DNA of 64,000 bases, taken from the NCBI RefSeq assembly GCF_014645015.1, contig NZ_BMLC01000001.1, positions 820,585 to 884,584 on the forward strand, read 5' to 3'. The translations under genes were made by a program, and so were the position numbers. The notes beneath the pieces are model-generated. The model made no database searches. It was not told the origin of the DNA and saw only the letters and a program-made list of their open reading frames with translations. This DNA is from Salinibacterium xinjiangense. GTDB taxonomy: Bacteria > Actinomycetota > Actinomycetes > Actinomycetales > Microbacteriaceae. This document shows positions 564-18,642 of the stretch, one piece after another; position 1 is the first letter of the stretch; the number at the start of each line of letters is the position of its first letter.

Positions 564-663
564 ACGGATCGGTGCGCTGAACTGCGCGGTCGTGCTCACG
601 CCTGCCACCGCGCGCCTGTGCAGTGACACAGCACCGCGCGGGCCGAGGTGTCAGACTCGTGGC

Positions 664-1242
664 ATGCCCCAACGCTTCAGGCCCGGAGTTCTGGTGCTGC
701 TCACTCTCATCGCGATCGTGATCGCGGTGCTGCTTGCAAGGCTCGCGGGCGTCGGCACGCCCGAGACGTCCGGCACGCCCGGCACGTCCGGCACGTCCGG
801 CACGCTCGGCACGACACCGGCCACACGACCGGAAGCGAGCGTCGTCCCGAGCGCAGCCACCGAGGCGACCGTCGAATATGTGCATGACGGGGACACCCTT
901 TTTCTCACCGACGGCCGCAAGGTCAGGATGCTCGGAATCAACACCCCCGAGATCGGTGACAATCTCGAATGCTACGGCGACGAAGCGACCAGCCTGCTGC
1001 GTCAACTCCTCCCCAAGGGCACCAACGTGCGAGTTCTCCCCGACGTTGAGCCGCTTGACAAATACGGTCGGTCCTTGCTGTTTATCTACTTGGATGATTC
1101 CACCAACGTCAATCTCGAGATGCTCAGGCAGGGCGCCGCCGAGGTCGAGATGTATCGCCCGAATCTGTTGTTCCAGGCTGAGATCGAGGCGGCAGAACAG
1201 GCTGCCATCGATTCCGGTGTCGGCATGTGGGGAGTGTGCTGA
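664..1242 (+). CDS. Membrane-anchored thermonuclease-like nuclease (SNase family)
   Basis: 192 aa. An N-terminal hydrophobic segment (about residues 6-28) without a lipobox or clear cleavage site suggests a membrane anchor. A short linker of repeated Gly-Thr-Ser/Pro units (about 35-55) follows, encoded by near-perfect 9-bp repeats at about 755-815. The rest is a staphylococcal-nuclease fold: YVHDGDTLFL, then VRMLGINTPE (the RL-x-GI-x-TPE signature) and DKYGRSLLFIYL with the second Arg region. Proteins of this family cleave DNA and RNA in a calcium-dependent way, here presumably outside the membrane. The ATG at 664 is chosen because it puts the hydrophobic segment at the N-terminus; no strong ribosome binding site is visible. 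The gene ends 24 bp before recQ. Confidence 0.85.
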   Translation: MPQRFRPGVLVLLTLIAIVIAVLLARLAGVGTPETSGTPGTSGTSGTLGTTPATRPEASVVPSAATEATVEYVHDGDTLFLTDGRKVRMLGINTPEIGDNLECYGDEATSLLRQLLPKGTNVRVLPDVEPLDKYGRSLLFIYLDDSTNVNLEMLRQGAAEVEMYRPNLLFQAEIEAAEQAAIDSGVGMWGVC

Positions 1243-1266
1243 CGGTAGCTGCTGGGAGACTCGAGT

Positions 1267-3342
1267 GTGACCGATACGCGAAGCGCAGCCCTGGCCATCC
1301 TCCGCACCCTGGTCGGCAGGGATGACGCCGACTTCCATGACGGGCAGTTCGAGGCGATCAGTGCACTTGTCGACGACGCGAGTCGGGCTCTCGTCGTACA
1401 GCGCACGGGGTGGGGCAAGTCTGCGGTCTACTTCGTCGCCACGCTGCTGCTGCGCCAGCGCGGCGCCGGCCCGACGATCCTGGTGTCGCCGCTGCTGGCG
1501 CTGATGCGCGACCAGATCGCCGCGGCATCCCGAGCCGGGGTGCGGGCGGTGGCAATCAACTCGACGAATCCGCACGAGTGGGCCGAGATCCAGTCGCGGC
1601 TTCAGGATGACTCGGTCGATGTGCTGCTCGTCAGCCCCGAGCGGCTCAACAACCCTTCTTTCCGCGAAACGCAGTTGCCTGCCCTCGTGGGGCGCACGGG
1701 ACTGCTCGTGGTGGACGAAGCACACTGCATCAGCGACTGGGGGCACGACTTTCGGCCCGACTATCGGCGACTGCGCGACCTGATCGCGGAACTGCCGAAC
1801 GGGGTCCCGGTGCTCGCGACCACGGCGACGGCCAATTCCCGCGTGGTGGCGGATGTCGCTGCGCAGCTCGGCTCTGCCGACACCGTGCGCACCATCCGGG
1901 GCCCGCTCGCGCGCCGCTCCCTGAGACTGGGCGTGCTGCGGCTGCCGGATGCGGCCGCGCGGCTCGCCTGGCTCCTGACCCACCTCAACGAGCTTCCCGG
2001 TAGCGGCATCATCTACACGCTCACGGTCAGCGCCGCCGAAGACACCGCGCGGCTGTTGCGCGATGCCGGCCACGATGTGCGGGCGTACACCGGCCAGACC
2101 GACACCGCGGAACGGCAGGATGCGGAGGAGGCACTGAAGCGCAACGAGGTCAAGGCGCTGGTCGCCACGTCCGCGCTGGGGATGGGTTTCGACAAGCCCG
2201 ACCTCGGGTTCGTGCTGCATCTGGGCGCTCCATCCTCTCCCGTCGCGTACTACCAGCAGGTGGGCCGTGCCGGTCGCGCGACAGATAACGCTGACGTCGT
2301 GCTTCTGCCCGGGCCGGAAGACGAGGCGATCTGGAATTTCTTTGCCACGGCATCCATGCCCAGCCAGGAACGGGCCGAGGCGGTGCTCGCCCAACTCGGC
2401 GACCAGCCGCTCAGCACCCCCGCGCTCGAGGCTCGGGTCAACATCAAGCGCACGCCGCTGGAGCTGCTGCTGAAGGTGCTCGACGTCGACGGCGCGGTGC
2501 AGAAGGTGCAGGGCGGGTGGGTGTCGACGGGGCGCCCGTGGCAGTACGACCGTGAGCGCTACGAGCACATCGCCGCGGAGCGCAAAGCCGAGCAGCAGCA
2601 CATGCTCGACTACGAGGCGCTGCCGGCCGGGGCATCCGGGTGCCGCATGGAGTTTCTGCAGCGCTCGCTCGACGACGACACCGCGACACCGTGCGGGCGG
2701 TGCGACAACTGTGCCGGCGCCTGGTTCTCCGCAGATTTGGGGGTGGATGCCGCGGCGCAGGCCGCCTCGTCGCTCGACCGTGTCGGGGTGCCGATCGACC
2801 CGCGCGCGCAGTGGCCGACCGGCTCGGCTGTCGCCCGGGGCAACATCCCCGCCGCCGAACGGATGCTGGAGGGCCGGGCCCTTGCGCGCCTCACCGACCT
2901 CGGCTGGGGCGGAACGCTCCGCTCCCTCTTCGCGATCGACGCCCCGGATGCACCGGCCTCCCCCGCGATGCTCGCCGCGTGCGTGCGAGTGCTGGCGGGC
3001 TGGGGTTGGGCCGAGCGCCCGGTGGGTGTCGTCGCGATGCCGTCGCGCGGTCATCCACTGCTCATCGACTCGGTGGCGAAGGGGCTGGCAACCGCCGGGA
3101 AGCTTCCCTATCTGGGCTCGCTCGGCTACGCCCATCCCCCGCAGGGCGGGCCCGGCGGTAACAGTGCGTTCCGTCTCGCGCAGGTGTTCGACGCTTTCGA
3201 GGTGCCGTTTGACGTCACGGGCGGCCCGATCCTGCTCGTGGATGACCTCGCCGACAGCCGCTGGACGCTCACCGTCGCCTCCCGCCAGCTCCTGCGCGCT
3301 GGCGCGGGCGGCGTGCTGCCGTTCGCGCTCGCGCTGCGGTAG
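1267..3342 (+). CDS. recQ: RecQ-family DNA helicase with C-terminal phosphoribosyltransferase-like domain
   Basis: 691 aa, GTG start. A superfamily 2 helicase core is clear: motif I RTGWGKS (46-52), DEAH at 150-153 followed by [13 protein letters not shown], motif III ATTATAN, then motif [11 protein letters not shown] Cys cluster (CGRCDNC) marks the RecQ zinc-binding region. The last 40 residues read [20 protein letters not shown], which resembles a PRPP-binding loop of type I phosphoribosyltransferases such as ComF. This tail is found on RecQ-like helicases of actinobacteria in place of an HRDC domain. Expected role: 3'-5' unwinding in recombination and repair; the job of the tail is unknown. 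A decayed copy of the 3' end lies at 4826-5165. Confidence 0.92.
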
Positions 3343-5265: not shown

Positions 5266-6726
5266 ATGAAAAAGCCCATTCCGGTCATCGACCTGTTTGC
5301 CGGCCCCGGGGGTCTCAACGAGGGCTTCTCGAGGCTCGGAGAAGACGAAGGCGACCCGGATTTTGACACAATTGGGTCGTTCGAAATGGAGTCGTCCGCG
5401 ATCAAGACCTTGACCCTCCGAGCCGTCTATCGGCAACTACTTCGCAACGGCGGCGTCCCACCCAGCTATTACGACCACATCCGTGGAGACCTCGCTTGGG
5501 AATCCTTCGTCGCTGACGAACGAGTGGCTGAAGCGCTGGAGGTGGCAAGCGATCACATTCACCAAGTGGAGTTGGGCAGTGAGGATGACGACTCAGACGA
5601 CCTAATTCGAGGAGCGCTGGATTCATCGGGAGTGACTTTGGAGTCGCCTTGGGTTCTAATCGGCGGGCCGCCGTGTCAGGCATACTCACTTGCTGGCCGC
5701 TCACGACGCGTCAATGACGACTCCTTCGCAAGCGACAAAAAGCACTTTTTATATCGCGAGTATCTCCGAATCATCAGCACTTTCGCCCCTCCGGTTTTTG
5801 TAATGGAAAACGTCAAGGGATTGCTTTCATCTCAAAGCGAGGGGTCGGGGACGTTCGACCGCATCATGAGAGATCTGTGTGAACCTGGCGACGGCCTGAA
5901 GTACGAGGTGCACTCCCTAGTGATAGACAAGAGGCCGAGCCAGCTCAAGCCGAGCGATTTCGTAATCCGTGCTGAGCAATACGGAGTGCCTCAACGGCGT
6001 CATCGCATCATCCTAGTTGGCGTGCGGGAAGGCTTCTTCGATCAAGCGCAAGTCGGAAAACTCACTCCATCCAACCCGGTAACCGTAGCCGACGCACTTC
6101 TCGGGATGCCCGAAATACGTTCCGGTATCAGTAGATCGAAGACTGACGACCAAGCGGAGTGGGAGGCGGTCAGGACTTTGGCCTCGTCACCAGCACAGCT
6201 CCCTCCTGCCCCCACGTCGCGAGGTGGCAAGTCTCTTCGACGACAATCGGTTCCAGCCGGGCTATTCGGTGAATGGACTATGGATGACGATCTCAAAGAA
6301 GTTATCCAGCATGAATCTCGCGACCACATGGTTGAAGATTTGAAGCGTTATTGGTTCGCCGCCGACAAAGCCAGACGAGACGGCGTATCGCCGAAACTCG
6401 CTCAATTTCCTCCCCATCTCCAGCCGAAACACAAGAACGCCGACAACGAAGCACGCCCCTTTCAAGATCGTTTTCGAGTTCAGGTCGCGAACGACCCAGG
6501 CACGACGGTCGTTTCTCACATCTCAAAGGATGGGCACTATTACATTCATCCGGATCCGAACCAAATGAGAAGCCTCACAGTTCGCGAGGCAGCGCGACTT
6601 CAGTCGTTCCCTGACAACTATTTTTTCGTGGGCAGTCGAACGCAGCAATACCACCAAGTTGGCAATGCTGTCCCTCCACTCCTCGCCAATCAAATCGCGA
6701 AGGTAATACGCGAGCTATTTCACTGA
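5266..6726 (+). CDS. DNA (cytosine-5)-methyltransferase
   Basis: 486 aa. All main motifs of m5C methyltransferases are present: motif I DLFAGPGGLNEGF (9-21), motif IV GGPPCQAYS with catalytic Cys137, motif VI ENVKG (181-185), motif VIII QRRHR (243-247), and C-terminal TVREAARLQSFP and QVGNAVPP for motifs IX and X. It transfers a methyl group from S-adenosylmethionine to C5 of cytosine in a target sequence that cannot be read from the protein. The target recognition region is about residues 255-425. It converges on the AIPR gene, overlapping it tail to tail by 12 bp. With Vsr at the other end of the island it is best read as the modification arm of the system. Motif spacing is otherwise complete, so it should be active. 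Confidence 0.93.
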   Translation: MKKPIPVIDLFAGPGGLNEGFSRLGEDEGDPDFDTIGSFEMESSAIKTLTLRAVYRQLLRNGGVPPSYYDHIRGDLAWESFVADERVAEALEVASDHIHQVELGSEDDDSDDLIRGALDSSGVTLESPWVLIGGPPCQAYSLAGRSRRVNDDSFASDKKHFLYREYLRIISTFAPPVFVMENVKGLLSSQSEGSGTFDRIMRDLCEPGDGLKYEVHSLVIDKRPSQLKPSDFVIRAEQYGVPQRRHRIILVGVREGFFDQAQVGKLTPSNPVTVADALLGMPEIRSGISRSKTDDQAEWEAVRTLASSPAQLPPAPTSRGGKSLRRQSVPAGLFGEWTMDDDLKEVIQHESRDHMVEDLKRYWFAADKARRDGVSPKLAQFPPHLQPKHKNADNEARPFQDRFRVQVANDPGTTVVSHISKDGHYYIHPDPNQMRSLTVREAARLQSFPDNYFFVGSRTQQYHQVGNAVPPLLANQIAKVIRELFH

Positions 6727-8787
6727 CACCGCATCTAGCTGCGGACGCTCCATCCGAAATCCAAGACGCTCAACCTCAACAGCTATCTTCACGCCCTGGA
6801 CAACCTGTTTTGCACTAAGAGCACGGTCTTGCGTTAGGTAGGAACCGATGGAGAAAGCTAAGCCCCGCTGCCAAGACTGGAGATTGCCGGTTTGCTTCGC
6901 CCACGCCGCGATACCGATCCATGCTTCAGGGCCGAGACTTAAAATTAAGGCTCGACCAGCAATCTCGTCGTCGGACGCAGGGAGAGACGTTTCGGGTTGG
7001 GAAGCTGCAGTGGCGGATCTTGAGGTGGAGGCGACTGCCCCTATCATCAGGTCGCTCGGCGCAACCCAAGAAATTTCTTTCACGGCCGCCCAACAATCCT
7101 TCTTTTTTGCCCATTCAAGTACGTTCTTTGACCCGGCGGATGAGATCAACTTCGCGTGAATCAGGGGAGCAAGTTCATTTACCGATGACGCCCAATGCGG
7201 AGACACCGCCTGCTCACGCCAAACCTGATCCAAGTTGAGTCGCATAGAGATTCGGTTCGATACTAGAGCGACTGTATAAGCAACAACCGCTGACCTGTAG
7301 CCGCCCAGCTTCAACGCGTTGACGAGCAGTTCAGTCTGTTTCCAGAGAATTGCCTTTGATATCAAGTCTTGGAAATACGGAGCATCGGGTGAGGTCGATT
7401 GTTTCGACTCTGCCATTGCCTGCGAGAATTCATTGAAATTCTTCTCGGCGCCTAGGGCGACAGAGAACGGCAATTGCCGCCAGGCGTTTTCATATTTTGC
7501 GACGTCCGTCTTGGCAAAAAGCTGCTTGCGCGGATGACTCAACAGGAACTGGCGCTTCTGCGCCGGGGTCCGCTCCCTGCCCACGGCATCGGCAAATTGC
7601 CCCCGCGAGCGCTCGTAGAACCACCGGGTCATTTCATGACTACCTTCGGGTGCCGGTGCCCAGATGCTCCGGGATAGCTTTTCGAGCTCTACGTGGAATG
7701 GATCGTTTGCACTGAAATCAGCCATTCTGATCAGGTTCTGCGTATTTGCAAAGCGTGATATCAGTGGGGCCAACGAGCTTCGGGCGTCATCTTCCAGTAT
7801 GGAAAGCTTCGCTTGAACTAATACGTTCGAGAGGTCGACTCCTGGTTTGCGAGAGGCGTAGTACAGCGAAGCTGTCGTCTGACCGCCGTTGACAATCTGC
7901 AAGCCAATCAGTCGGGAGATCACGGTTTCACCGCTGGACGTCTTTCTACGCTCAACCGACGTAGCTGTCATTGACAGCCCATTGTTGTAAGCGAGAAACC
8001 TCGAAGGGTCGTCCTTCAGCGTGGTTTGCATCCCTTGATTCGTCTTTCCGCGCGCCTGCAAAAACGAGCGAACATTTAGCTCCAGAAGTCGAGGGCCAAA
8101 CTCTTCATAAACGTCGGCCAAGAACTTACCCGGTATCACCAGCAGATATGCCTCGTAGTCCTTGCCCTCGAAGGGTCCGATCGACGCCAGACCGTCTACC
8201 CCGAAATCAGAGGTCAGCACTTCAACCGGTTCTTGGGTTTTTCCAGAGCCGATGAGGCGCTCCAACCGCTCCAAATCCCAAACTTCGTAACGCGCGGGAT
8301 GTCCCTCGAACTCCTCGGGGGCCGGAGGGGTAGTCCGGAGCAGCGAATTGGTCAGCACCACGAACCGGATCGCTCGAGCGTGGGTCCATACGTCAAAGAC
8401 AAACTGCGCGGTGTCGAAGACGTCCGTTGACTCCTCGATCTGTCGATAGAGGCCTTTCACACACGCAGCCGCGAACCGGTTCAATCGAGCAAAAAGGCGC
8501 GAAAGGTCTGCCTTGGTAAGCGTCGGGACTTCATCTTTCGAGGTGAAATGTGCCACGTAAAAGGTAAGCAGCGCCCGCTCCTCGTCCCAATCGAATGCGC
8601 TGATCTGCATTCGTGAACTTTCGAAGACGGCCTCCGTCACACGAGGATCGTTGGCCTCACCCGCATCAATGAGAATGTCGAGGGCCGTCTTGGTGAAGGC
8701 GCTCGCCAGACTCGATTCCTCGCCTTCAGCGTCAGCAGTTATACGCACCAACTGTTGCAGTTCGACCTGGAACAGATCGAGATTCAT
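6715..8787 (-). CDS. AIPR-family protein (abortive infection/phage resistance)
   Basis: 690 aa, last gene of a four-gene leftward operon. The AIPR signature is clear: VRSFLQARGKTNQGM (239-253), RFLAYNNGLSMTA (263-275) and GLQIVNGGQTTASLYY (295-310). AIPR proteins are linked to abortive infection and restriction-type loci; their biochemical activity is not settled. The start ATG at 8787 overlaps the stop of the upstream PD-(D/E)XK gene by 4 bp (ATGA), which points to coupled translation. Together with the Z1, DUF4420 and MutL-type ATPase genes it makes the conserved core of Mza-like defence operons. No truncation is visible. Confidence 0.9.
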   Translation of the reverse strand: MNLDLFQVELQQLVRITADAEGEESSLASAFTKTALDILIDAGEANDPRVTEAVFESSRMQISAFDWDEERALLTFYVAHFTSKDEVPTLTKADLSRLFARLNRFAAACVKGLYRQIEESTDVFDTAQFVFDVWTHARAIRFVVLTNSLLRTTPPAPEEFEGHPARYEVWDLERLERLIGSGKTQEPVEVLTSDFGVDGLASIGPFEGKDYEAYLLVIPGKFLADVYEEFGPRLLELNVRSFLQARGKTNQGMQTTLKDDPSRFLAYNNGLSMTATSVERRKTSSGETVISRLIGLQIVNGGQTTASLYYASRKPGVDLSNVLVQAKLSILEDDARSSLAPLISRFANTQNLIRMADFSANDPFHVELEKLSRSIWAPAPEGSHEMTRWFYERSRGQFADAVGRERTPAQKRQFLLSHPRKQLFAKTDVAKYENAWRQLPFSVALGAEKNFNEFSQAMAESKQSTSPDAPYFQDLISKAILWKQTELLVNALKLGGYRSAVVAYTVALVSNRISMRLNLDQVWREQAVSPHWASSVNELAPLIHAKLISSAGSKNVLEWAKKKDCWAAVKEISWVAPSDLMIGAVASTSRSATAASQPETSLPASDDEIAGRALILSLGPEAWIGIAAWAKQTGNLQSWQRGLAFSIGSYLTQDRALSAKQVVQGVKIAVEVERLGFRMERPQLDAVSVK

Positions 8788-9788
8788 CGGTACTGCTCCA
8801 ATACCGGCTCAACCATTGCTTCAAATGTGACTCGCCACTCCTGACACTGGTCAATGTTTAGTTGGTACTTGGTTCGGGAGACGGCCGGCGGCAGGTCAGT
8901 TGTTCGGAGCGAAGGGAAATCTTGCCGCACGGCAAAAACTTCTTCTCGAGTCGACTCATAGTGCGAAAAGTAAAGCGAGGCATGAATATCCAAATATCCA
9001 ACGTCTATCAACAGATCTTCAAAGTGGTCTGCTTCATTTGCGAAATTAGCGAGTGACTTCCGGACCCGACCGACGATTTGTGGGAGAGTCAGACCCTGGC
9101 TGTGAGGTCGCACGTCGTAACCGAGGAAGATCAGGAACAAAGGCGAGATTTCGCCAGGGTCCAATTGCCTTTCGCTGTTTATCGTCGCGCTGGCAGACGC
9201 GAGTGATGCACTTGCTTTAACTTCAAGCGCCCAATCTTGAGCGGAGAAGTCGTGGACCTCTGAGTGGGGACCTTCCCACAAGGCGACCGAGCGGTCGACC
9301 GGGACGCCCGCTGCTTGGAGCTCTTGCAGAACGACCAGCTCGGCGAAGAGACCGAGCTGCTCTTCGCGCGTGAGCCCTTCAACGTTCCTGCTAAAGAATG
9401 CTTTCCATCGAGAAAGTCGCTCGGAGACCTTCTTTGCTTCTTCACCTGTGGAGGGCGTCACAGCCCTAACTAAGTCCTGCACCACGACGCCAAACAAAAC
9501 GCTGTCACCCGGCCTGACTTGGTCGATTCTCAGTTGTTGCGCCTTTGGCGTCGAACTAACCAAGGAAAACTTCAGTCCGCGGACTTGGTCTACTTGGCTA
9601 ACCAATGACGATTGGTGCTCGAATTCGAACCGGACACCTCGCATACGCGATTCCGTGTCCACGGTGAGTACCAAGTTCACTGTTCGAGACAGCATCACTC
9701 GGCGAGATACCTGGCCGAGCCCTACGTCAACACTTTCAAGCTCTGCGTAGGTTCCCTCGATGTCCATGAAGCCCGCCTCAGTCGTCAT
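8784..9788 (-). CDS. PD-(D/E)XK motif protein (DUF4420 family)
   Basis: 334 aa from the preferred start. Family hallmarks are LGLFAELVVLQEL, WEGPHSEVHDFSA and WALEVKASAS; the E of FAEL, D of HDF and E-x-K of EVKAS would form the nuclease-type active site. Two ATGs lie close together (9794 and 9788). The second is preferred because AGGAGG on this strand is 9 bases before it but only 3 before the first. The start overlaps the end of the Z1 gene by 11 bp. Family members sit next to Z1 and AIPR genes and are thought to be the nuclease of the system; cleavage itself is an inference. Confidence 0.88.
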   Translation of the reverse strand: MTTEAGFMDIEGTYAELESVDVGLGQVSRRVMLSRTVNLVLTVDTESRMRGVRFEFEHQSSLVSQVDQVRGLKFSLVSSTPKAQQLRIDQVRPGDSVLFGVVVQDLVRAVTPSTGEEAKKVSERLSRWKAFFSRNVEGLTREEQLGLFAELVVLQELQAAGVPVDRSVALWEGPHSEVHDFSAQDWALEVKASASLASASATINSERQLDPGEISPLFLIFLGYDVRPHSQGLTLPQIVGRVRKSLANFANEADHFEDLLIDVGYLDIHASLYFSHYESTREEVFAVRQDFPSLRTTDLPPAVSRTKYQLNIDQCQEWRVTFEAMVEPVLEQYR

Positions 9789-12618
9789 TGTCATCCGCCT
9801 CCTGAAATGCCCGAACCATTTCAAGGTCCCAATAGATCTCGTTTACGCGGTAGTTCACTGAGGGGGCTTCTTCGCTCCACGGAAATGCAATCGCAAACCC
9901 TACATAAGGCGTTTCATCTGCATCCAACCCAGCGGCGTCACGCTCGAGCGGATAAATCAACAAATATCCCCGCTTCGGACTTCTGATCCGGCGCTCAGCT
10001 AGCGCGGTCGGCGCAGTTGGCACCCCGGCCTTGTTTACGCGGCTGGATCCCTCCCAATTGCTTATGGCTTGCTGAAGGGCTCGAGACATTTCTTCGGCAT
10101 CGTCTTTGATCGGGAAAAGCTCGTCGGCGCTGCTTACGAGACGACCGATAACATATGTGGGCGGGTTTCCGTCTGGGCGTGTGTCGGGATTTCGCTCAAT
10201 TAGTCCAAAGCTGTCGTTCGGAAGATTTAGCTCCTCACCCGCACCGTCTTTGGATGCGATATACACGTCCCAAGTGGTCAACTCGGAATCTTCTAATCCG
10301 TTACATGAACGGACATACTCAGACATCGCCGCGGGGAGTGCGCGATAGGCACCGCGATGTGCATCGTATCCATCCAGGAACGCCAGGATGGTTGTCGGCC
10401 TAACGCCTCTCCAATAGTGCTTTCGATTGGTGGTGGCTACTGCATGCGGATCATTCTTCATCGACTCGAGGAGTGTCGTAAGGGCAGCTACGTTCCGTTT
10501 CCGCACAATCTCATCGTCAACAAACAAGATGGTTTCTGTGATTGTGCCGCTGAAGCTGGCGCGAATGTTCTTGGCGAATCGGGACTTGTTCGCTGCGGTT
10601 ACCATTAGGCCATCAGGATGGGACTGCACCCGCAGACCGAAATCAATAGGAGTTTTTCCGAGTGCTGCCATGAGCTCAAACTCTTTATATAGTCGCTCAG
10701 AAGCGCCGGTGATCCTGCGATACCAGCGGACGAGCTGCTCTGTCGTGTACAGCCGGCAAACATCCAGGTAGCCCGGTCTGTATCCGAACCATCTACCCAT
10801 CTGCATCAACGTGTCGTACATCTTGCTCGCTCGCAAGTAATAAGAGGTAGTGAGGCCTTCGAGAGTCAACCCTCGGGAGAGCTTGTCTCCACCCACTGCG
10901 ATTACAGTAATTCCGTCTGGATTTTCCTCGTATAAAAGAGCGTCTTTCGCCTCCCCGTTGATCGCTTTGACCTGCATCTGTCCAACTACTTGCTCAATGA
11001 AGGGCTGAAGTTCGACGAATGATGCAAAGCCAGAGGATTGTGCGTCAAGGGTTCCCTGCGCCTCCATGAGCTCGTGGGTTGCTCGGAAGTCGCCCTCATA
11101 CAGATCGCGCAGCATCAGCCACGCTTGAGTATCAAGGCCTTCGGCCGGAAGGTATAAAATTTCGTTCCTGATCGAAAGCACAAAATCGGTGACCTGTTCC
11201 GCGACGGCAGTTTGTACGTCGACGTATTTGGTGACATGGAGCAACATCGAATTGTGCTTCATCCGCGCTCGTCGGGCCCGCTTAACTGCGGAGGATAGGA
11301 CGAAGGAACATATCGCTTCTCGGACACTTTTGGGCAGGGGTCCCTTTGGCAGTTCACCTTTCTTGTGTCCGTCCGGCAGCCAAGAGTCGTAGTCCTTGAC
11401 TTCTCGATTCGTAGGAAGCGCCTCGACCCCCTCCACACCTGCCGAGTCGTCTTCCTTAAGTCCGAATATTTTTGCCGGCCCTGAATACGCCGAGGTCTCC
11501 GGCAAAGTCACAATGAAGTGCTCCGGGAACAACCCCTTTCCAAAGATCTCGTGATCCGCAGAGGGATTAATAAAGATGTTGGCGAAGGGGGTAGCCGTAT
11601 ATCCGACGTAGGCGGTCTTTTCGAAAGCATTCAGCAGTTGGCGGATCAACGCGTTGGTCGCCGAGGGACTACTCTCGTCGCCCGTCACTTTGTCGACGAT
11701 CGAGCCGGTATCGATAGATGCGTGGTCCGCCTCGTCATCGATGAGCAGCATTGGAACATTGCGCACAATCTTCTGACCGGTTTCGGGGTCCAACTCATGG
11801 TGAAGACCGGTTGACCAGGCATAAAGGTTTTTCAAGATGGCGGTATTTTTCTTCACGACAAGAATCACCGGATCGCCACCAAGGGCGCCAACTCCTTGCG
11901 CAAGCCGTCGGTTAAAGTCGCCCTTCTGATCTGACGACGTAGGGCAATTGATTCGGGGCTTCCGGGCGTCTTTTAGTCCAACTCCTACGCGCATCCCCAG
12001 ACTGCCGTTTATATTTCCCTGGGTATTGAACCCCAAAACACCGCTGTTGATTCGTAACTGGGTTTGGCTTCGAAGGTTGTCATGTGTCCCCGCCAACACA
12101 ATGACCAATTTGTATCCGGCATCAAGCGCCTTGTTGATCAAGCCAACGTAGTTTGACGTCTTGCCGGACTGGACCTGGCCGGCGACGAGCCCACGTCGGC
12201 TCCAGGCCCCCGGTCGTCGTGGGTCTTCCAACATCCCTAGGATGCGATCGGTGATGGGGTGAAGCGATCCATCGATGACGGTTTCCGGCCGATGTTCGTC
12301 CTCGATCAGCCACTGCCGGTACCTGCTCCAGTACTCCCAACTGATTTCGTTCTTTTGAGTTTCCAGCCACTCGACGTGTCCTTCATTGTTTACGAGGAGG
12401 TGCTCGTTACCGACGTAGACGTTGAACAGAGTTTCTAACTGCAAGGCGGCGTCGTGCATCTGCTCTTCGCTTACCTCGTAGCCGGAACGAGACTCGGTGA
12501 ACTCTTTCGCAGCCGCGAGAGCCTCGTCAAACAGCTCCTGGGGAACGACTCCGAATTCCCGGTACTGCTCGGCCAACTCCACACGTGCGTAACTGACTAT
12601 CTTTTCAGAGACGTTCAT
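9778..12618 (-). CDS. Z1-domain helicase-like ATPase
   Basis: 946 aa. The P-loop GQVQSGKT (147-154), Walker B IDDEAD (293-298), motif III-like YVGYTATPFAN (337-347) and the C-terminal VGGDKLSRGLTLEGLTTSYY followed by MGRWFGYRPGY define the Z1 branch of superfamily 2. In this branch the last block replaces the usual arginine-finger motif. Z1 proteins occur almost only in restriction or defence operons and probably translocate on or remodel DNA. The ATG at 12618 overlaps the stop of the upstream MutL-type ATPase gene by 4 bp. The N-terminal 130 residues are helical and unassigned. Confidence 0.92.
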   Translation of the reverse strand: MNVSEKIVSYARVELAEQYREFGVVPQELFDEALAAAKEFTESRSGYEVSEEQMHDAALQLETLFNVYVGNEHLLVNNEGHVEWLETQKNEISWEYWSRYRQWLIEDEHRPETVIDGSLHPITDRILGMLEDPRRPGAWSRRGLVAGQVQSGKTSNYVGLINKALDAGYKLVIVLAGTHDNLRSQTQLRINSGVLGFNTQGNINGSLGMRVGVGLKDARKPRINCPTSSDQKGDFNRRLAQGVGALGGDPVILVVKKNTAILKNLYAWSTGLHHELDPETGQKIVRNVPMLLIDDEADHASIDTGSIVDKVTGDESSPSATNALIRQLLNAFEKTAYVGYTATPFANIFINPSADHEIFGKGLFPEHFIVTLPETSAYSGPAKIFGLKEDDSAGVEGVEALPTNREVKDYDSWLPDGHKKGELPKGPLPKSVREAICSFVLSSAVKRARRARMKHNSMLLHVTKYVDVQTAVAEQVTDFVLSIRNEILYLPAEGLDTQAWLMLRDLYEGDFRATHELMEAQGTLDAQSSGFASFVELQPFIEQVVGQMQVKAINGEAKDALLYEENPDGITVIAVGGDKLSRGLTLEGLTTSYYLRASKMYDTLMQMGRWFGYRPGYLDVCRLYTTEQLVRWYRRITGASERLYKEFELMAALGKTPIDFGLRVQSHPDGLMVTAANKSRFAKNIRASFSGTITETILFVDDEIVRKRNVAALTTLLESMKNDPHAVATTNRKHYWRGVRPTTILAFLDGYDAHRGAYRALPAAMSEYVRSCNGLEDSELTTWDVYIASKDGAGEELNLPNDSFGLIERNPDTRPDGNPPTYVIGRLVSSADELFPIKDDAEEMSRALQQAISNWEGSSRVNKAGVPTAPTALAERRIRSPKRGYLLIYPLERDAAGLDADETPYVGFAIAFPWSEEAPSVNYRVNEIYWDLEMVRAFQEADDNDD

Positions 12619-14162
12619 TCGAGGTCCTCTCGGAAGGCTTGAACAATTTCGAGGTAGTAGATGAAGGGCTCGGCAGTAGCCAAAAAATCGAGGGCTTCAG
12701 AAGAAGATTTGCCCTTGGCGATTTGTCGTTGATGCATGAATTCCAATTGATCCCGTACTTCGAGGCCCTCGTCTTGAAAAGGGCCTTTGGTTGAATCCAA
12801 CGACTCGGCTACTGCTATCCCAATCTGAGTGACGGGGACCGTCTCTTCAACAAATCGCAAAAGCCGCTCTACTGCGGTTTTGTTGACGAGTCCGTCACTC
12901 AGTGCATCGGCCACTAGCGGATGCCTACGATTCACCCGATAGGAAGTGCCACCGCTCCTGTGCCCAATTGCATCCCAAGCGACCACATACTCCTTTGCCA
13001 GACGGGACGCGGTCTGCTTGCCGCGGAATCTATAGACCTCTTCGGCATCCTTCTTCGTGGCTCTTGCAATACGCCGCAAATCACCCAACATCCCGCTGGG
13101 CGCCTTGATTGATGACTTCCTGACATCTACCTGCCATAGGTGATCCAGCGTTGACGGGATTTCGATGGCGATCCGGGCGAGCTTGCTGTGCTCCTCCTTA
13201 GCGCCGCCCACCCCCAGCCATGATCCGCCCACAAGCAAGCGATCTTTTCGATACACGTAGAACCCTTGGCTTGCGTTCCAACCATCCAAACCGGCAGCCG
13301 CTTCGTGCTCCGCTTCGCTCAACTTCGACTTGTGAGGCAGCACAAACGGCTCGACCACGACTTCGTAACCTGCCAACCAAATGGACTCTTTGCCAGTAGT
13401 CGAGGTAGCCATGTGGCTACGTAGAAACGGATCCCATGGGATTAGTTGCTGACCGTTCACCCATATCCGCACAGGTCGACTGCGGGAAAGGTATCGGTGG
13501 AAGACCAATTCGAGGTGCCTTCGAACGGAGTCGACGATTTTTAGAAAGTCAGCTTGCGATCCCGCCGACTCTGCGCCGAACACCTTATCGAGCATGCGAT
13601 CCAGTTTCCCCAATGCGACTACGGTGCCCGAATCTGGTAATAACTCCGCCATACTTTCCGAAATTTCGCTGGGCGCTTCCGTGAGAAGTCTCCACTCGTC
13701 CGTCCTTTGCACGACGTCTAAGTCCCATTGGCGCACGTGTAAATTCTCGGCCTTCGGGGTTCGGGACATCACCGTCAACTGACGTCCCTGAGAGAACGAG
13801 GCTGTCTTGAGCCCGAGTCCGAACCTGCCAAGGTCGCCCTTGCTTCGATCATTCAGCGGGCTCTGACTTCCAAGCCGCATCGCCGCGACGAGGGTTTTCT
13901 CGTCCATCCCATCTCCGTTGTCAGTGATGGATATCCAAGAACTGGAACCCATCCAGTGCAACTGGACACGAATTTCGAACGCACTAGCAGAAATGCTGTT
14001 ATCGATCAGATCCGCAAGGGCGGTCTGGGGGCTGTAGCCGAACGCACGAAGCGATTCGAGGATTGGGCTAGCGCTTGGCTCAACAATCTCGTAGTCATGG
14101 CCACCGGCTCTAGCGTCTTCGATTGTCGCGTGTGGCTCCCTATGCGTCACCGGGTCACACAT
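12615..14162 (-). CDS. MutL/MORC-type GHKL ATPase of the defence operon
   Basis: 515 aa from the chosen ATG. The Bergerat ATP-binding fold is complete: N-box ALADLIDNSISA (48-59), G1 DNGDGMD (81-87) and G2 GRFGLGLKTASFS (112-124). Sequence similarity starts at YEIVEPSASPILESLRAFGYSP (about residue 24), so the ATG at 14162 is favoured. The frame is open upstream to 14411 and an earlier start at 14273 is possible; no strong ribosome binding site decides. It heads the leftward operon and is divergent from vsr, leaving about 290 bp for two promoters. In related systems this ATPase is expected to act as a clamp or sensor together with the Z1 protein. Confidence 0.88.
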   Translation of the reverse strand: MCDPVTHREPHATIEDARAGGHDYEIVEPSASPILESLRAFGYSPQTALADLIDNSISASAFEIRVQLHWMGSSSWISITDNGDGMDEKTLVAAMRLGSQSPLNDRSKGDLGRFGLGLKTASFSQGRQLTVMSRTPKAENLHVRQWDLDVVQRTDEWRLLTEAPSEISESMAELLPDSGTVVALGKLDRMLDKVFGAESAGSQADFLKIVDSVRRHLELVFHRYLSRSRPVRIWVNGQQLIPWDPFLRSHMATSTTGKESIWLAGYEVVVEPFVLPHKSKLSEAEHEAAAGLDGWNASQGFYVYRKDRLLVGGSWLGVGGAKEEHSKLARIAIEIPSTLDHLWQVDVRKSSIKAPSGMLGDLRRIARATKKDAEEVYRFRGKQTASRLAKEYVVAWDAIGHRSGGTSYRVNRRHPLVADALSDGLVNKTAVERLLRFVEETVPVTQIGIAVAESLDSTKGPFQDEGLEVRDQLEFMHQRQIAKGKSSSEALDFLATAEPFIYYLEIVQAFREDLE

Positions 14163-14451
14163 TTGAATGCGATGCCAGCAAAGTAACGGGAAACGCAACC
14201 TCTTGCTGGGATGGGGGCAGAAAGAGCGTTCTTGTCCCCCGAACTGTGATAATGACGGCGATGAGATCGGCATCCGACGCTCGGTATTGCAAGATGCTTT
14301 CCCCCATTGCGCCCCGGCCGGATCGCTCACTACGAATATATTGGAGTCTGCTGACATTCGCTCGACTTCGCTAACCCCAATCCGGGTGACTTCGCCAACA
14401 TAGGCCCGCAATTGGCCAGATTTCCGGACAAGTAGGGCGTAAATTGATCAT

Positions 14452-14862
14452 GTGGCTGATGTTCACTCCCCTGAGCAACGCAGCCGGAATATGGCAGGAA
14501 TCCGATCAGCGAACACTAAGCCAGAACTTCGGCTTCGAAGGGCCCTTCACGCGCAAGGCTTTCGATACAGGCTCAACTCGGCGAAGCTGCCGGGCAAACC
14601 TGATCTAGTGTTCCCGAGCCGCAAAAAAGTGATTTTTGTTAACGGCTGCTTCTGGCACGTGCATGACTGCAGGTACGGTCAGGTCGTGCCTGCAACCCGA
14701 CCAGAGTTCTGGGCTGAGAAGCGCAACGGGACAGTTGGGCGTGACGCACGTAAAAACTCCGAACTGGAAGCGCTTGGGTGGCAGGTGCACACGGTTTGGG
14801 AGTGCGAACTTCGAATACCTGAACAGGCCATCGCAGATGCAGTTCAATTCCTTAAATCGTAA
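14452..14862 (+). CDS. vsr: Very short patch repair endonuclease Vsr
   Basis: 136 aa, GTG start that gives the family's usual opening (ADVHSPEQRSRNMAGIR, compare MTDVLTPEQRxxNM). The catalytic Asp51 lies in KLPGKPDLVFP, and the cluster GCFWHVHDC (65-73) carries the zinc and active-site Cys and His residues. Vsr nicks next to T in T:G mismatches that arise when 5-methylcytosine deaminates. Its presence fits the m5C methyltransferase at the far end of the island. Length is normal for the family. It is transcribed away from the ATPase-Z1-DUF4420-AIPR operon. Confidence 0.95.
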   Translation: MADVHSPEQRSRNMAGIRSANTKPELRLRRALHAQGFRYRLNSAKLPGKPDLVFPSRKKVIFVNGCFWHVHDCRYGQVVPATRPEFWAEKRNGTVGRDARKNSELEALGWQVHTVWECELRIPEQAIADAVQFLKS

Positions 14863-14887
14863 TGACTTCAGGTGCCACTACCCCTTA

Positions 14888-15190
14888 CTGGCGTCCGTGG
14901 CACCGCCACTGTGGCGACGGCGACCACCAGCATCGCGATGAAGACCGCGGCCGAGCCAGCGGTGATCCTCGCGGGTAAGAGGTCATCGGCATCCCCCTTC
15001 CCCGAAGATGGAGTTAGCTATCCCACCGAAGATGGAAACCCCGATCGCGCTGCCGATGGAGCGGGCGAACAGGTTCGTCCCGGTGACGACACTGCGCTCA
15101 TCCCATCCGACGATGGATCGGCCGGCGCTAAGGGTGGGTACAGCCACCAGTCACATAGCGAGGCAGACGATGAAGCAAGCGATCACGAGA
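14888..15190 (-). pseudogene. Remnant of an MFS transporter gene (3' part)
   Basis: This stretch matches the 3' portion of the intact DHA2-type transporter gene (about 35560-35870, same strand) by eye at roughly 80%. Shared runs include gccgatcgcgctgccgatggagcggg-like sequence and gaccaccagca with cgcgatgaa. Indels break every frame. It lies just past vsr, so the right edge of the defence island is a transporter remnant, as the left edge is a recQ remnant. Confidence 0.75.
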
Positions 15191-15520
15191 CAGTAATTGG
15201 ATCGGTCTGTTGAGGCCGAGTGACGACACGCTATCGACCATTGAGGAAGCCTGTGGGGTGCTTCGTGCGGGAACGTGGTTCGCATCTGAGCCACTGGGGT
15301 GGCGCTCGAAGCCAGCGACGTGCGCAGGCGCGGGAGATGAGGCAGCGTCTGCCCGCGCCACCGACCTGCCCAGCACCAGCCCTAGTGGATGCCATCCAGC
15401 GTGTCGGTCGCGGTGTTGCCGATGTTCGCCCAAAACTCCGGCTACCCCACTGGGCCGAAGTTCTGCGTTCATGCGGTTAATCTTCCTCGACTAAAAGACA
15501 GCCTCCGCCGGTAGCCTCCG
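15191..15520. other. Unassigned decayed sequence
   Basis: About 330 bp with no convincing gene. The minus strand carries protein-like pieces interrupted by stops (for example PEFWANIGNTATDTLDGI near 15400), so it may be another remnant. The family is not recognised. Confidence 0.3.
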
Positions 15521-15523
15521 GGC

Positions 15524-15740
15524 ATGGCGCTGTTAAATCGCATAATCGTTGACCCGGAGGTCGCGCACGGTCGGCCGCGGCACGCGAATTCGCGTGACTG
15601 ACGTGCTTTCGCGTCTAGCTCAAGGCGCCTCAGAAACAGAGATGCTTGAGCACTACCCACATCTCGCCGCCGAGGACATCCGCACATGCCTCGCGTATGC
15701 CGCTGCACAGACCGACCACGCGATCGTGGTTGCTTCGTAG
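15524..15740 (+). pseudogene. Frameshifted DUF433 antitoxin gene
   Basis: The N-terminus MALLNRIIVDPEVAHGRP starts at 15524 and runs into a TGA. The adjacent frame carries the rest of the family pattern, RGTRIRVTDVLSRLAQGASETEMLEHYPHL and EDIRTCLAYAA, to the TAG at 15740. A short indel near 15580 separates the halves (family pattern: DPE-x-GKPxIRGTRIRV). DUF433 proteins are antitoxins of the VapB45 type, normally followed by a DUF5615 PIN-like toxin, which is what remains just downstream. Confidence 0.8.
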
Positions 15741-15830
15741 CTGGTGCGTTTTCCTGCCGCCGAGCTGCGGTGACGGGCGCAGGTGGGAGGCACGAGGCAT
15801 CCACTGGCCCCATAATGAAGCCGCCACAGC
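15741..15830 (+). pseudogene. Remnant of a DUF5615 PIN-like toxin gene
   Basis: Directly after the DUF433 stop, reading across a frame gives VRFLPPSC and RRWEARGIHWP. This resembles the start of DUF5615 toxins (RFLVDAQLPPALARWLxxRG). Only about 30 codons remain and the frame is broken. Position right behind a DUF433 gene supports the call. Confidence 0.5.
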
Positions 15831-15837
15831 ACCCGCC

Positions 15838-17274
15838 CTACCCGATCCCTCCCAGGGTCTCCATCTCGGTGTTGCCGATGCGCGCGATGACGTCGGGACG
15901 GTTGCGTCGAAGGTAGACGTACCTGATGACCGTGAGCAACACGAGCCCAAGGAAGATCCACGGCAGCACGTTGAACGGAAATGTCGGCACCGGGAACACG
16001 TTCGCATAAAAAACGTACGCCATACCCACAACCGACAGGACGGTCGTGAGCCACACCAGTGGGGTGGCCTTTCCCATCCTGCGCAAGACGATGAGCGAGG
16101 CCACCGCGACCAGCGCATAGGCGAACATGTAGCCGTAGGTTCCCGTCGTGTTGATCCAAACCAGCACGCTGATGCCATCGACGCCCGCAAGATAGAAGAG
16201 CACGGGCAGCAGGATGATGAACGGCGCCACCATGAGGATCGCCCGGTGCGGCGTCAGGTGCGTGGGGTGGGTGCGACCGATGGATTCGTGCACCACTCCC
16301 TCCTTGCCCATCACGTACACGATGCGTCCGATGACGTTGATCGGAGCGACGACGACGGCGAAGAACGACGCGGCGATACCGAAATTGAGGATCGGGTAGA
16401 ACCAGGTGGGGAAACCCGCGAAGGCCGCGATGTCATCCATGGGGCTCGCCGACGCTCCGAGACCGTCACCGAGCACGGCGACCTGGGAGTAGGCGGCGAA
16501 GATATACAGCAGGCCCACGCCGAGCGCACTCCACATGATGACGCGAGGGATGGTGCGGAACGGATTGCGTGCCTCGCGACCCAAAGCATCAGCTGATGAG
16601 AAGCCGACGAAACCAAGGATGGCCAGCACCATACCGGCGGCGACACCGTTGAAGGTGATGTTCTCGAAAGCGAACTGTGACAGATCCAGCGCGTTCGGCC
16701 CGAGGGCGACGAGACCGGAGATCAGCACGATCGTGATGATGGTGATCGACACGAGCTCGAGCGCGAGCGAAACCCGGGCCGACAGCCTGATCGAGCGGAT
16801 CGTGAAGTAGGTGGCCAGCGACCCCAGCAGGATCGCAATGACAACCTGCGACAGCACGCCCTCGACAGGAATCCCCAGGTCATTGAGCACCGTGGTCATG
16901 TACACGACGGAGCCGCTGAGCGAGGCCGCCGCAATGCCGAAGCAACCGAGCACGAGGGTCACGCCCGTCAGGAAGGCGCCGGTCGGGCCGAGACCCGCCG
17001 CCGAGTAGCTATAGAGCGACCCCGCCGATGCGCGCGTCTTCGCGAACTGGGCGATGTTGTAGCCGACAGCGAGGATGATGATGGTGGCGATCGCAAAAGA
17101 AAGCCACGTCGCTTTTCCTGCGGTCAGAAATATTGCCGCCGCGGTGAAGGCGATGACAGCGCTGGGCGCAATGTTGGCGAGCGCCTGGGCGGCGAGTTCC
17201 GCGCCGCCCATGACGCCCGAGCGAAGGCCGGCGTCGGCTTTCTGCCCGGTCGCCTCGGTTTTTTCTGTGGTCAT
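15838..17274 (-). CDS. APC-superfamily amino acid/amine permease
   Basis: 478 aa with about 12 hydrophobic helices. The N-terminal pattern GGAELAAQALANIAPSAVIAF and GLGPTGAFLTGVTLVLG are typical of the amino acid-polyamine-organocation transporters. It would import an amino acid or amine by proton symport; the substrate is not readable. The ATG at 17274 follows AAAGGAAC. It lies 60 bp after the zinc alcohol dehydrogenase gene on the same strand, so the two probably form an operon. A PucR-type regulator is divergent from it. This setting suggests use of an amino alcohol or amine, which is an inference. Confidence 0.88.
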   Translation of the reverse strand: MTTEKTEATGQKADAGLRSGVMGGAELAAQALANIAPSAVIAFTAAAIFLTAGKATWLSFAIATIIILAVGYNIAQFAKTRASAGSLYSYSAAGLGPTGAFLTGVTLVLGCFGIAAASLSGSVVYMTTVLNDLGIPVEGVLSQVVIAILLGSLATYFTIRSIRLSARVSLALELVSITIITIVLISGLVALGPNALDLSQFAFENITFNGVAAGMVLAILGFVGFSSADALGREARNPFRTIPRVIMWSALGVGLLYIFAAYSQVAVLGDGLGASASPMDDIAAFAGFPTWFYPILNFGIAASFFAVVVAPINVIGRIVYVMGKEGVVHESIGRTHPTHLTPHRAILMVAPFIILLPVLFYLAGVDGISVLVWINTTGTYGYMFAYALVAVASLIVLRRMGKATPLVWLTTVLSVVGMAYVFYANVFPVPTFPFNVLPWIFLGLVLLTVIRYVYLRRNRPDVIARIGNTEMETLGGIG

Positions 17275-17334
17275 GATGATGTTCCTTTCACTGGAGAGAC
17301 AGGGTGATTCTTCGGGTGGAGCACGGCAGAAGCG

Positions 17335-18441
17335 CTACCGGGGGTCAGGGATGAGCAGGGTGCGCAGCGCCGTGCCGTCCTCGAGAGCATCGAGAGCGGC
17401 GACCGCCTCAGACAGCGGTCGCCGGGCCGAGACGAGGGCCTCGAGCTCAAGGTCACCATCCATGAAGCGGTCTACCAGGGCCGGGATATCGATCGAGGGT
17501 CGCACGCTGCCGTAGTTGGAACCGAGGATGCGCTGGTCAGACTCTGCGAGAACGAGCGGCTCGAAAGAGGCGCGGGCCCCCGTCGGAGGCAGCCCGACAA
17601 TGACGGCCGCACCGCCGAGCCCGAGCATCCGGATCGCCTGCTCCGTCGTCGCGGTGTTACCTATCGCGTCGAACGCATAGTCGACCCCATCGGGGAAAAG
17701 TTCGAATAGAGCCGCTACCGGATCACCCGTGGCAGCGTTGATCTCATCGGTGGCCCCCAGTTTCGTGGCGAGTGCCGTCTTCTCGAGGCGGAGGTCGATC
17801 GCGACAATGCGGCTCGCGCCCGCAAGGCGCGCACCCTGCACGACAGACAGCCCCACCCCGCCGCAGCCGATGACGACCACGGTGGCTCCCGGTTCGACCC
17901 GGGCAGTGTTCGTGACGGCCCCCACTCCGGTAGCAACCGCACAACCGACCAGGGCAATAACGTCGAGGGGCGCGTCGTCCCGCACCTTGATGGCGCCGGA
18001 TGCCGGAACGACGACCTCTTCGGCGAACGATGACACCCCGAGATAGTGGTGAAGGGGTTCACCGTCAACGCTGAGGCGGGACGTGCCATCCTGCAGCACC
18101 CCGAGTGGTGCGACGACCTTGGCGGCGACCTGGCAGCGCGCCTCATGGCCGACCAGGCAGTACCGGCATTTTCCGCAGGGCGCGACCCAGGAGAGCACGA
18201 CATGGTCGCCGATCGAGAGATTGTTGACGCCGGGCCCGACCGCGCTGACGACTCCGGAACCCTCGTGCCCCATCACGAGCGGGCTCGGCACGTCCCACTC
18301 GCCCCGGCGCACGTGCAGGTCGGAGTGGCAAACGCCGGCGGCGGCAATGCGCACACGCACCTCGCCAGCCTTCGGGTCTGCGAGCTCAACATCCTGGTAA
18401 GAAATGCTCCTGGTATCTGACGAAAAAACGATGGCCTTCAT
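17335..18441 (-). CDS. Zinc-dependent medium-chain alcohol dehydrogenase
   Basis: 368 aa. Catalytic zinc ligands Cys38 (GVCHSD) and His59-Glu60 (MGHEG), a structural zinc cluster Cys89, Cys92, Cys95 and Cys103, and a Rossmann motif (VVVIGCGGVGLS, about 185-196) are all present. It oxidises an alcohol with an NAD-type cofactor. The ATG at 18441 has AGGAG ten bases upstream (gcaggagaaaagtcacc). The frame is open further upstream but without similarity. First gene of an operon with the APC permease; divergent from the PucR-type regulator gene. Confidence 0.93.
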   Translation of the reverse strand: MKAIVFSSDTRSISYQDVELADPKAGEVRVRIAAAGVCHSDLHVRRGEWDVPSPLVMGHEGSGVVSAVGPGVNNLSIGDHVVLSWVAPCGKCRYCLVGHEARCQVAAKVVAPLGVLQDGTSRLSVDGEPLHHYLGVSSFAEEVVVPASGAIKVRDDAPLDVIALVGCAVATGVGAVTNTARVEPGATVVVIGCGGVGLSVVQGARLAGASRIVAIDLRLEKTALATKLGATDEINAATGDPVAALFELFPDGVDYAFDAIGNTATTEQAIRMLGLGGAAVIVGLPPTGARASFEPLVLAESDQRILGSNYGSVRPSIDIPALVDRFMDGDLELEALVSARRPLSEAVAALDALEDGTALRTLLIPDPR

Positions 18442-18642
18442 GGTGACTTTTCTCCTGCTCGCTGGTCGAGACGTCGGTGCGTATCCTGAGTGTAGAAAAA
18501 GACGCGCCAGTTTCTCGCCTGACCAAATGCACCGTTTGCGAGCACATCGTGCCGTTATGTCCACCCACCTCCCGACTGGAGTTTCGCCATCCCACTGCGG
18601 ACGACCGCACATACCCCCGAGGGTGAGAGCCGCTTCACCGGC

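Follow-up and report, generated by a model that had tools for sequence, protein, structure and literature searches.

An Mza-type gene set with methyltransferase and Vsr genes

The 64,000-nucleotide stretch of Salinibacterium xinjiangense DNA analyzed here (contig NZ_BMLC01000001.1, positions 820,585 to 884,584; hereafter the window) carries at positions 5266-14862 a six-gene island related to the Mza defence system, the name reportedly given by Gao in 2020 to the gene set MzaABCDE. All six genes are open frames. A 5-methylcytosine (m5C) DNA methyltransferase (MTase) gene on the plus strand is followed on the minus strand by genes for relatives of MzaE (AIPR), MzaD (DUF4420), MzaC (Z1), and MzaB (GHKL ATPase), and then by a plus-strand gene for a Vsr mismatch endonuclease:

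5266..6726, plus strand: m5C DNA methyltransferase, 486 amino acids (aa), DrmMII-like; PF00145, 165 bits; convergent with the operon
6715..8787, minus strand: mzaE-like gene, AIPR protein, 690 aa; PF10592, 296 bits; PF22879, 123 bits; MzaE models
8784..9824, minus strand: mzaD-like gene, DUF4420, predicted PD-(D/E)XK nuclease; PF14390, 197 bits; likely start ATG 9794
9778..12618, minus strand: mzaC-like gene, Z1-domain ATPase of superfamily 2 (SF2) type, 946 aa; PF10593, 248 bits; PADLOC MzaC, 628 bits
12615..14162, minus strand: mzaB-like gene, MutL/MORC-type GHKL ATPase; PF13589, 108 bits; MzaB models; likelier start ATG 14162
14163..14451, no strand: region between the divergent mzaB and vsr genes, its extent set by the mzaB start
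14452..14862, plus strand: Vsr mismatch endonuclease, 136 aa; TIGR00632, 149 bits; aligned to E. coli Vsr 1cw0

Pfam, PADLOC, and NCBIfam concur on the family of each island gene, and the Pfam scores exceed their cut-offs for DNA_methylase (165 bits; cut-off 22), AIPR (296; 25), AIPR_N (123; 28), DUF4420 (197; 27), Z1 (248; 25), HATPase_c_3 (108; 25), and Vsr (116; 27). Chance family matches are excluded for the six island genes. An earlier note, made from the sequence alone, had described GHKL, Z1, DUF4420, and AIPR genes in one operon with a convergent m5C MTase and a divergent Vsr, and hidden Markov models (HMMs) placed all of them, including the four operon proteins, in the families it had named. 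Its Mza-like reading also held. PADLOC models matched the window proteins at 345 (MzaB), 628 (MzaC), 104 (MzaD), and 279 bits (MzaE), while the NCBIfam equivalog cut-offs were not reached (MzaB 421 of 850 bits, MzaC 709 of 1500, MzaD 150 of 420, MzaE 409 of 1050) and MzaA was not found. We conclude that the window core, mzaB through mzaE, is a relative of Mza and not an equivalog.

The family motifs are kept in the window proteins, as judged from alignments with up to 69 relatives. For the MTase these are PPCQ, ENV, QxRxR, and GNxV, for MzaC QSGKT and DDEAD, and for MzaB the GHKL boxes. Walker-type and helicase-like motifs are conserved in MzaC, for which a sequence search of the Protein Data Bank (PDB) gave no match at E ≤ 0.1. 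MzaD keeps E162, D192, and E201xK203, and all four residues are invariant in 54 of 54 aligned sequences. AlphaFold models of MzaD and MzaE reached predicted local distance difference test (pLDDT) scores of 90 (below 50 for residues 1-17) and 88, respectively, and neither matched a PDB fold at E ≤ 0.001. The best PADLOC model for the MTase was DrmMII (320 bits) and its PDB sequence matches were several m5C enzymes; its target-recognition region spans about residues 255-435. The Vsr lies above the TIGR00632 cut-off (149 against 97.85 bits), and its residues 2-129 align with the solved E. coli Vsr 1cw0 (E 6e-33).

Gene boundaries bore out only part of the earlier note, which had given overlaps of 4-11 bp within the operon. 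mzaE and mzaD overlap by 4 bp, as do mzaC and mzaB, but mzaD and mzaC overlap by 47 bp if mzaD starts at TTG, or by 17 bp from the ATG at 9794, which is likelier, and the convergent MTase and mzaE genes share 12 bp at their 3' ends. For MzaB, ATG 14162 is a more probable start than TTG 14411, because matches to the family models set in only at residue 111-118 of the long form and because the 515-aa form fits the nearest relatives, at two of the loci compared below (L058, 501 aa; L059, 533 aa). This start would leave about 290 bp between MzaB and Vsr, and the intergenic region may be the site of both promoters. The whole is a real and, from its sequence, apparently intact defence island, of a known kind and in a known arrangement.

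Linkage of methyltransferase and Vsr and their probable exchange between cores

At E ≤ 0.001, MzaC relatives occurred in 13 of 99 near genomes and 10 of 396 genomes of the phylum. Three other centres were searched at E ≤ 1e-40, with relatives in 19 of 398, 12 of 345, and 5 of 348 surrounding genomes; the centre genome is included in each count. A search of genome contigs confirmed at least 582 stretches, of which the best 80 were kept. Loci with all of mzaB, C, D, and E numbered 69 of 101 (window included) and 18 of 28 further ones, giving 87, of which 86 are distinct; L082 is the same record as L049 and is counted within the 87, and L135 and L136 are near-identical. Left out were the 41 of 128 loci that do not have one or more of B-E, L204 (MzaC of 600 aa or less), and L179, L181, L184, and L195 as repeats of earlier contigs. 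The linked MTase was defined as the nearest within 9 kb, and only m5C enzymes, not adenine MTases, were sought. L080 has two MTases, and the nearest in L118 belongs to an EcoRII-like restriction-modification (R-M) system. Outside these counts, 27 plasmid records hold MzaC relatives, and five phage records, all unannotated contigs from faecal samples, hold Z1 relatives.

An m5C MTase lay within 9 kb in 80 of the 87 full loci. The seven others comprise L058, with an MTase fragment at the contig edge; L124, with its MTase beyond 9 kb; L039, L063, L109, and L117, where the contig ends near the core; and L085, with none called. Vsr was present in 44 of the 80 loci with an MTase and in none of the seven without (Fisher p 0.0055), and over all 128 MzaC loci, full or not, 58 of 59 Vsr-bearing loci had an MTase. 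MTase linkage is therefore the rule and Vsr is found in about half of the relatives, so that loci lacking Vsr are not the rule, which the earlier note had held would speak against it. Among 54 of the 80 linked MTases that were scanned, 48 matched PADLOC DrmMII at E ≤ 1e-60. Vsr presence changed 31 times over the 108 rows of the MTase tree (a count without shuffle control), and Vsr has therefore often been gained or lost. The Vsr of L072 (15549-15983) is misaligned with other Vsrs beyond the conserved GC-W motif, and some linked Vsr genes may be degenerate.

Divergence of the parts was compared as distances between loci. MzaB, C, D, and E change together (Spearman 0.60-0.79, 62 loci). Across the 44 loci with Vsr, Vsr distance followed MTase distance given the core (partial r 0.55, 0 of 1000 permutations), while it did not follow the core given the MTase (partial r 0.03, 338 of 1000). 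The Vsr-MTase tie was 0.51 among 844 far-core pairs, and in 22 disjoint pairs rho was 0.75 and 0.92. Such co-divergence is the pattern expected if Vsr is a repair partner of the MTase. Together with the MTase found at 58 of 59 Vsr-bearing loci, it lends indirect support to the inference of the earlier note that Vsr would limit mutation at the methylated sites.

The window itself offers a case of exchange. Its nearest MTase and Vsr in the set both lie in L038, whose genome belongs to the same family, and only these two loci among the 58 loci with both genes share the layout of a divergent Vsr upstream and a convergent MTase downstream. Identity between them is 68-69% for the catalytic part of the MTase, 51-55% for the target-recognition region, and 59% for Vsr, against 34% for MzaB, 30% for MzaC, 17-18% for MzaD, and 33-34% for MzaE. 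In nucleotide comparison (blastn), MTase stretches match at 69-75% and a Vsr stretch at 75%, while the core gives two short MzaC stretches only; no match was shared outside the island over 20 kb of L038. The two are sisters in the MTase tree (99, starred; quick tree) and in the Vsr tree (100/96, starred). Their cores fall in two deep clades, and joining the two loci was rejected (approximately unbiased test, p 8e-5, for a pair chosen after the MTase result). The simplest history would be that the core was replaced between conserved ends or that both ends were captured. L059 (Intrasporangium) joins window and L038 in the MTase tree (100, starred) and lies near the window in the core tree (100, starred), making L038 the likelier exchanged one.

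Some loci show the opposite pattern. Nine pairs of loci have MzaC 86-95% and MzaD 76-93% identical, with target-recognition regions that are 21-41% alike; eight of these lie among L121, L128, L131, L135, and L136 (MzaC 86-93%), and the ninth is L076/L080. A further crossing involves L187, placed in the clade of L038 by the core tree, which puts L101 and L107 on the side of the window. In the MTase tree, by contrast, L101 and L107 form one group with L187, L188, and L200 (99, starred), and the Vsr tree likewise unites L187 and L188 with L101 and L107 (94/85, not starred). These comparisons suggest that the MTase-Vsr pair and the core recombine as separate modules.

Among 394 genomes of the class, the own genome alone gave a close relative of the MTase at 1e-60, with the genome of L038 not among the matches listed, and plasmid records gave no MTase match at that threshold. 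GC content is 54-55% in all six island genes versus roughly 60-70% over most of the window and near 65% in the genome, suggesting that the block was acquired. Permease and dehydrogenase genes make up the right flank, which has any match in 5 of 14 same-genus genomes and a long match in 2 (68% DNA identity); the island and its left flank had no blastn match within the 20 kb taken from each of two same-genus genomes sharing the right flank. Immediately to the left of the island (window 553-3342) lie two genes, one with an SNase domain and one for a DEAD/ResIII-type helicase of SF2. On the right, the interval from vsr to the permease gene (14863-15837) has no complete frame of at least 120 aa and resembles, by eye, gene remnants.

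We also noted additional genes at some related loci. In L052, L055, L066, L067, L086, and L049, a GHKL ATPase frame of about 420-455 aa adjoins MTases of 650-720 aa, with Vsr in five of the six; frame and long MTase may form a separate MTase-ATPase unit. In L092, L090, and L118 a protein with ankyrin repeats and sigma-70 regions is encoded upstream of mzaB. The one in L118 matches MzaA at 384 bits (cut-off 800). In L060 the frame after mzaE (15538-18546, 1002 aa) combines an RNA polymerase alpha C-terminal domain with sigma region 4; genes for an MTase and a second GHKL ATPase come next.

A candidate two-module mechanism and its rivals

We lean slightly toward reading the island as an Mza-type restriction system of two exchangeable modules, in which the core would read methylation rather than own a nuclease matched to the MTase. 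The MTase of the first module would mark host DNA, and Vsr would nick the T:G mismatches arising from methylcytosine deamination and so keep marked sites from mutating away. The second module, the MzaB-C-D-E operon with its GHKL ATPase, translocase-like Z1 ATPase, predicted PD-(D/E)XK nuclease, and AIPR protein, would attack incoming DNA that does not carry the mark. The core might sense methylation in general, might sense it jointly with DNA structure (the proposal made for DISARM), or might take its specificity from the MTase. Because near-identical cores occur with unrelated MTases, and sister MTase-Vsr pairs with far-diverged cores, an MTase-matched nuclease in the core is unlikely; if one core can serve several MTases, its action should not hinge on a single matched recognition site. 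According to passages of one report, DISARM DrmAB senses DNA structure and its ATPase rate is lower on m5C DNA (PMC9142583), and a review states that DISARM also blocks phages without the methylated motif (PMC5957327). By analogy with these reports, and given the module swaps, we prefer a core that would sense missing methylation in general to one with a nuclease matched to the MTase site. Part of a Listeria study records modification at GCAGC in four mza-encoding strains (PMC10687267), which suggests that Mza-linked MTases are active.

Several observations weigh against this two-module reading. The window Vsr has N at the position of the catalytic E. coli H64 (the 44 Mza-linked Vsrs have H in 29, D in 9, N in 5 including the window, and Q in 1), and its activity is therefore not assured. 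L051, which does not have the full BCDE set, is the sole locus with Vsr and no called MTase. The MTase, whole or in parts, followed the core weakly (Spearman 0.19-0.35, 62 loci) and, with core-MTase values of 0.24-0.28, is thus not wholly independent of it, MzaB given the other subunits weakly tracked the MTase catalytic part (r 0.16, 4 of 200; r 0.10, 16 of 300), and unadjusted Vsr-core rho in the 22 disjoint pairs was 0.43 and 0.50. Some pairs in the swap cases may have ceased to be cognate. Finally, in four E. coli mzaABCDE loci the annotation shows neither a cytosine MTase nor a Vsr in the 12 kb to either side, and a linked module is therefore not obligatory.

This last result fits a different account, in which MTase and Vsr form a pair of their own, Dcm-Vsr-like and either housekeeping or selfish, that only happens to lie in the island, while Mza works without them, as may be so in E. 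coli. The incongruence of the two modules fits that account too, and at least one linked MTase (L118) is part of the neighbouring EcoRII-like system. The account nevertheless seems improbable to us given that 80 of the 87 full loci have their MTase no more than 9 kb away, most of the exceptions being an MTase fragment, an MTase beyond 9 kb, or a contig end; linkage that persists through repeated exchange suggests function. We give similarly little credence to a core that acts chiefly as an AIPR-led abortive-infection device, with methylation as its off-switch, instead of degrading DNA. MzaE has both AIPR domains, of a family named for abortive infection, but all 54 aligned MzaD sequences have the nuclease motif unchanged and the helicase-like motifs of MzaC are kept.

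A conventional R-M system, with MzaD as a site-specific endonuclease matching the MTase site and MzaB, C, and E as motors or accessories, is a more serious contender, although we consider it rather unlikely. DUF4420 carries the E-D-ExK motif, and in 62 loci, once the other subunits and the MTase catalytic part were controlled for, MzaD alone tracked the target-recognition region (r 0.24, 0 of 300), a tie that counts against our reading and that held versus the variable columns of B, C, and E. Thirty disjoint pairs showed it as well (r 0.50-0.57; p 0.002-0.01 before any correction for testing four subunits); L082 and L136 were removed for the disjoint-pair tests of MzaD. In 18 further loci, however, MzaD gave r 0.09 (187 of 1000) and MzaC instead gave 0.30 (8 of 1000), and in 39 disjoint pairs from the combined loci the MzaD tie weakened to p 0.08-0.13. 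One set among the 30 disjoint pairs placed MzaB and MzaE at -0.47 (p 0.015), which hints that the partial values are unstable. No local window of B, C, D, or E stood out as tracking the target-recognition region. Individual pairs point the same way: MzaD is 79% identical between L121 and L135 with target-recognition regions 21% alike, and 18% identical between the window and L038 against 55% for that region. MzaD as specificity subunit was thus clear in 62 loci, failed in 18 new ones, and is contradicted by pairs with the same core and different MTases; we keep it as a rival.

Known systems and the question of Dcm in E. coli

Among the closest known systems is MzaABCDE (NCBIfam NF041931-NF041935; E. 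coli ET745, locus L220), whose MzaB-E relatives stand in the same order in overlapping genes, as in the window. Identity to E. coli Mza is 39% for B, 41% for C, 32% for E, and 28% over 248 aa for D. In Mza, MzaA, a protein of sigma-70 type, is encoded upstream of mzaB, whereas vsr lies upstream of the window mzaB; no sigma family was among the Pfam matches of 20 window proteins. DISARM is alike in that the window m5C MTase is DrmMII-like and differs in its ATPases and nuclease. The PADLOC matches listed for ten of the window proteins do not include the DrmA helicase, DrmB (DUF1998), or DrmC; for the helicase at 1267-3342 the scan was with Pfam alone. In CglI and NgoAVII the ATPase carries a Z1 domain and the nuclease is a separate R-protein of phospholipase D (PLD) type; no PLD-type nuclease was among the Pfam matches of the six island proteins. 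These systems are described as R-M sets of three genes and, like the window, have a DNA MTase and a helicase-like ATPase.

The earlier note had supposed the Vsr and MTase arrangement to be little studied, a view weakened by two reports of such sets. Iyer, Abhiman and Aravind (2008; PMC2292703, in the sections concerned) describe MORC/paraMORC-helicase operons, often with cytosine methylases and Vsr-type endonucleases, that resemble the window in their GHKL ATPase, SF2 helicase with a distinct C-terminal domain, nuclease of restriction endonuclease fold, cytosine methylase, Vsr-type endonuclease, and AIPR protein; those sections contain no test of whether Vsr follows MTase or core. The putative type II system of Miller (2022; PMC9523054, in part) combines Z1, DUF4420 (printed DUF4220), a cytosine MTase, and AIPR, with an associated MORC-type protein and MzaA in few only, and the window has this set with its MORC-type ATPase. 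The same part names DNA-repair endonucleases for type I, not type II, and holds no analysis of module exchange. Passages on a Corynebacterium diphtheriae BH8 island (PMC5379612) list Z1, DUF4420, a Dcm-like MTase, and an EcoRII-like enzyme. That island and L118 both combine Z1 and DUF4420 genes with a Dcm-like MTase carrying a helix-turn-helix domain and with an EcoRII-like endonuclease gene, whereas the window has no such endonuclease gene and its MTase is DrmMII-like. In the open-licence PubMed Central literature searched, we found no report of MTase-Vsr exchange among Mza cores and no worked-out mechanism for Mza-type systems. What is new here is comparative: Vsr accompanies the MTase, and the pair is exchanged against the core.

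The mzaC gene was present in 55 of 5426 E. coli genomes and a dcm-vsr match in 5316 of 5426, so co-occurrence is unable to test a partnership of Dcm with Mza; on the ET745 chromosome dcm-vsr lies elsewhere, away from Mza. In three of the four E. coli loci a type I restriction subunit gene is cut by the left edge, and further type I genes may therefore lie beyond. In L118, which has an E. coli-like Mza, the sole m5C MTase called is Dcm-like (52% identical to Dcm over 390 aa). Among L219, L221, and L222 (E. coli G1/2, 214-4, and ES5), we noted that an IS421 transposase gene apparently interrupts mzaB, which is so in two of the four E. coli loci, and that ES5 has two Mza gene sets side by side. 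At L118 (1785-6327), the Dcm-like MTase with its helix-turn-helix domain and an EcoRII-C gene stand beside the Z1 and DUF4420 genes.

We postulate, as a speculation with the odds well against it, that the Mza core is a plug-in effector that would read absent 5-methylcytosine marks of any MTase-Vsr pair in the cell, its E. coli partner being the 'orphan' Dcm-Vsr. If that were true, Dcm would gain a role as a self-mark for defence in E. coli. That Vsr goes with the MTase, and that the pair is traded against the core, narrows the mechanism of Mza-type systems. Module exchange predicts that the modules could be mixed by experiment, and it suggests for E. coli Dcm a role that can be tested directly.

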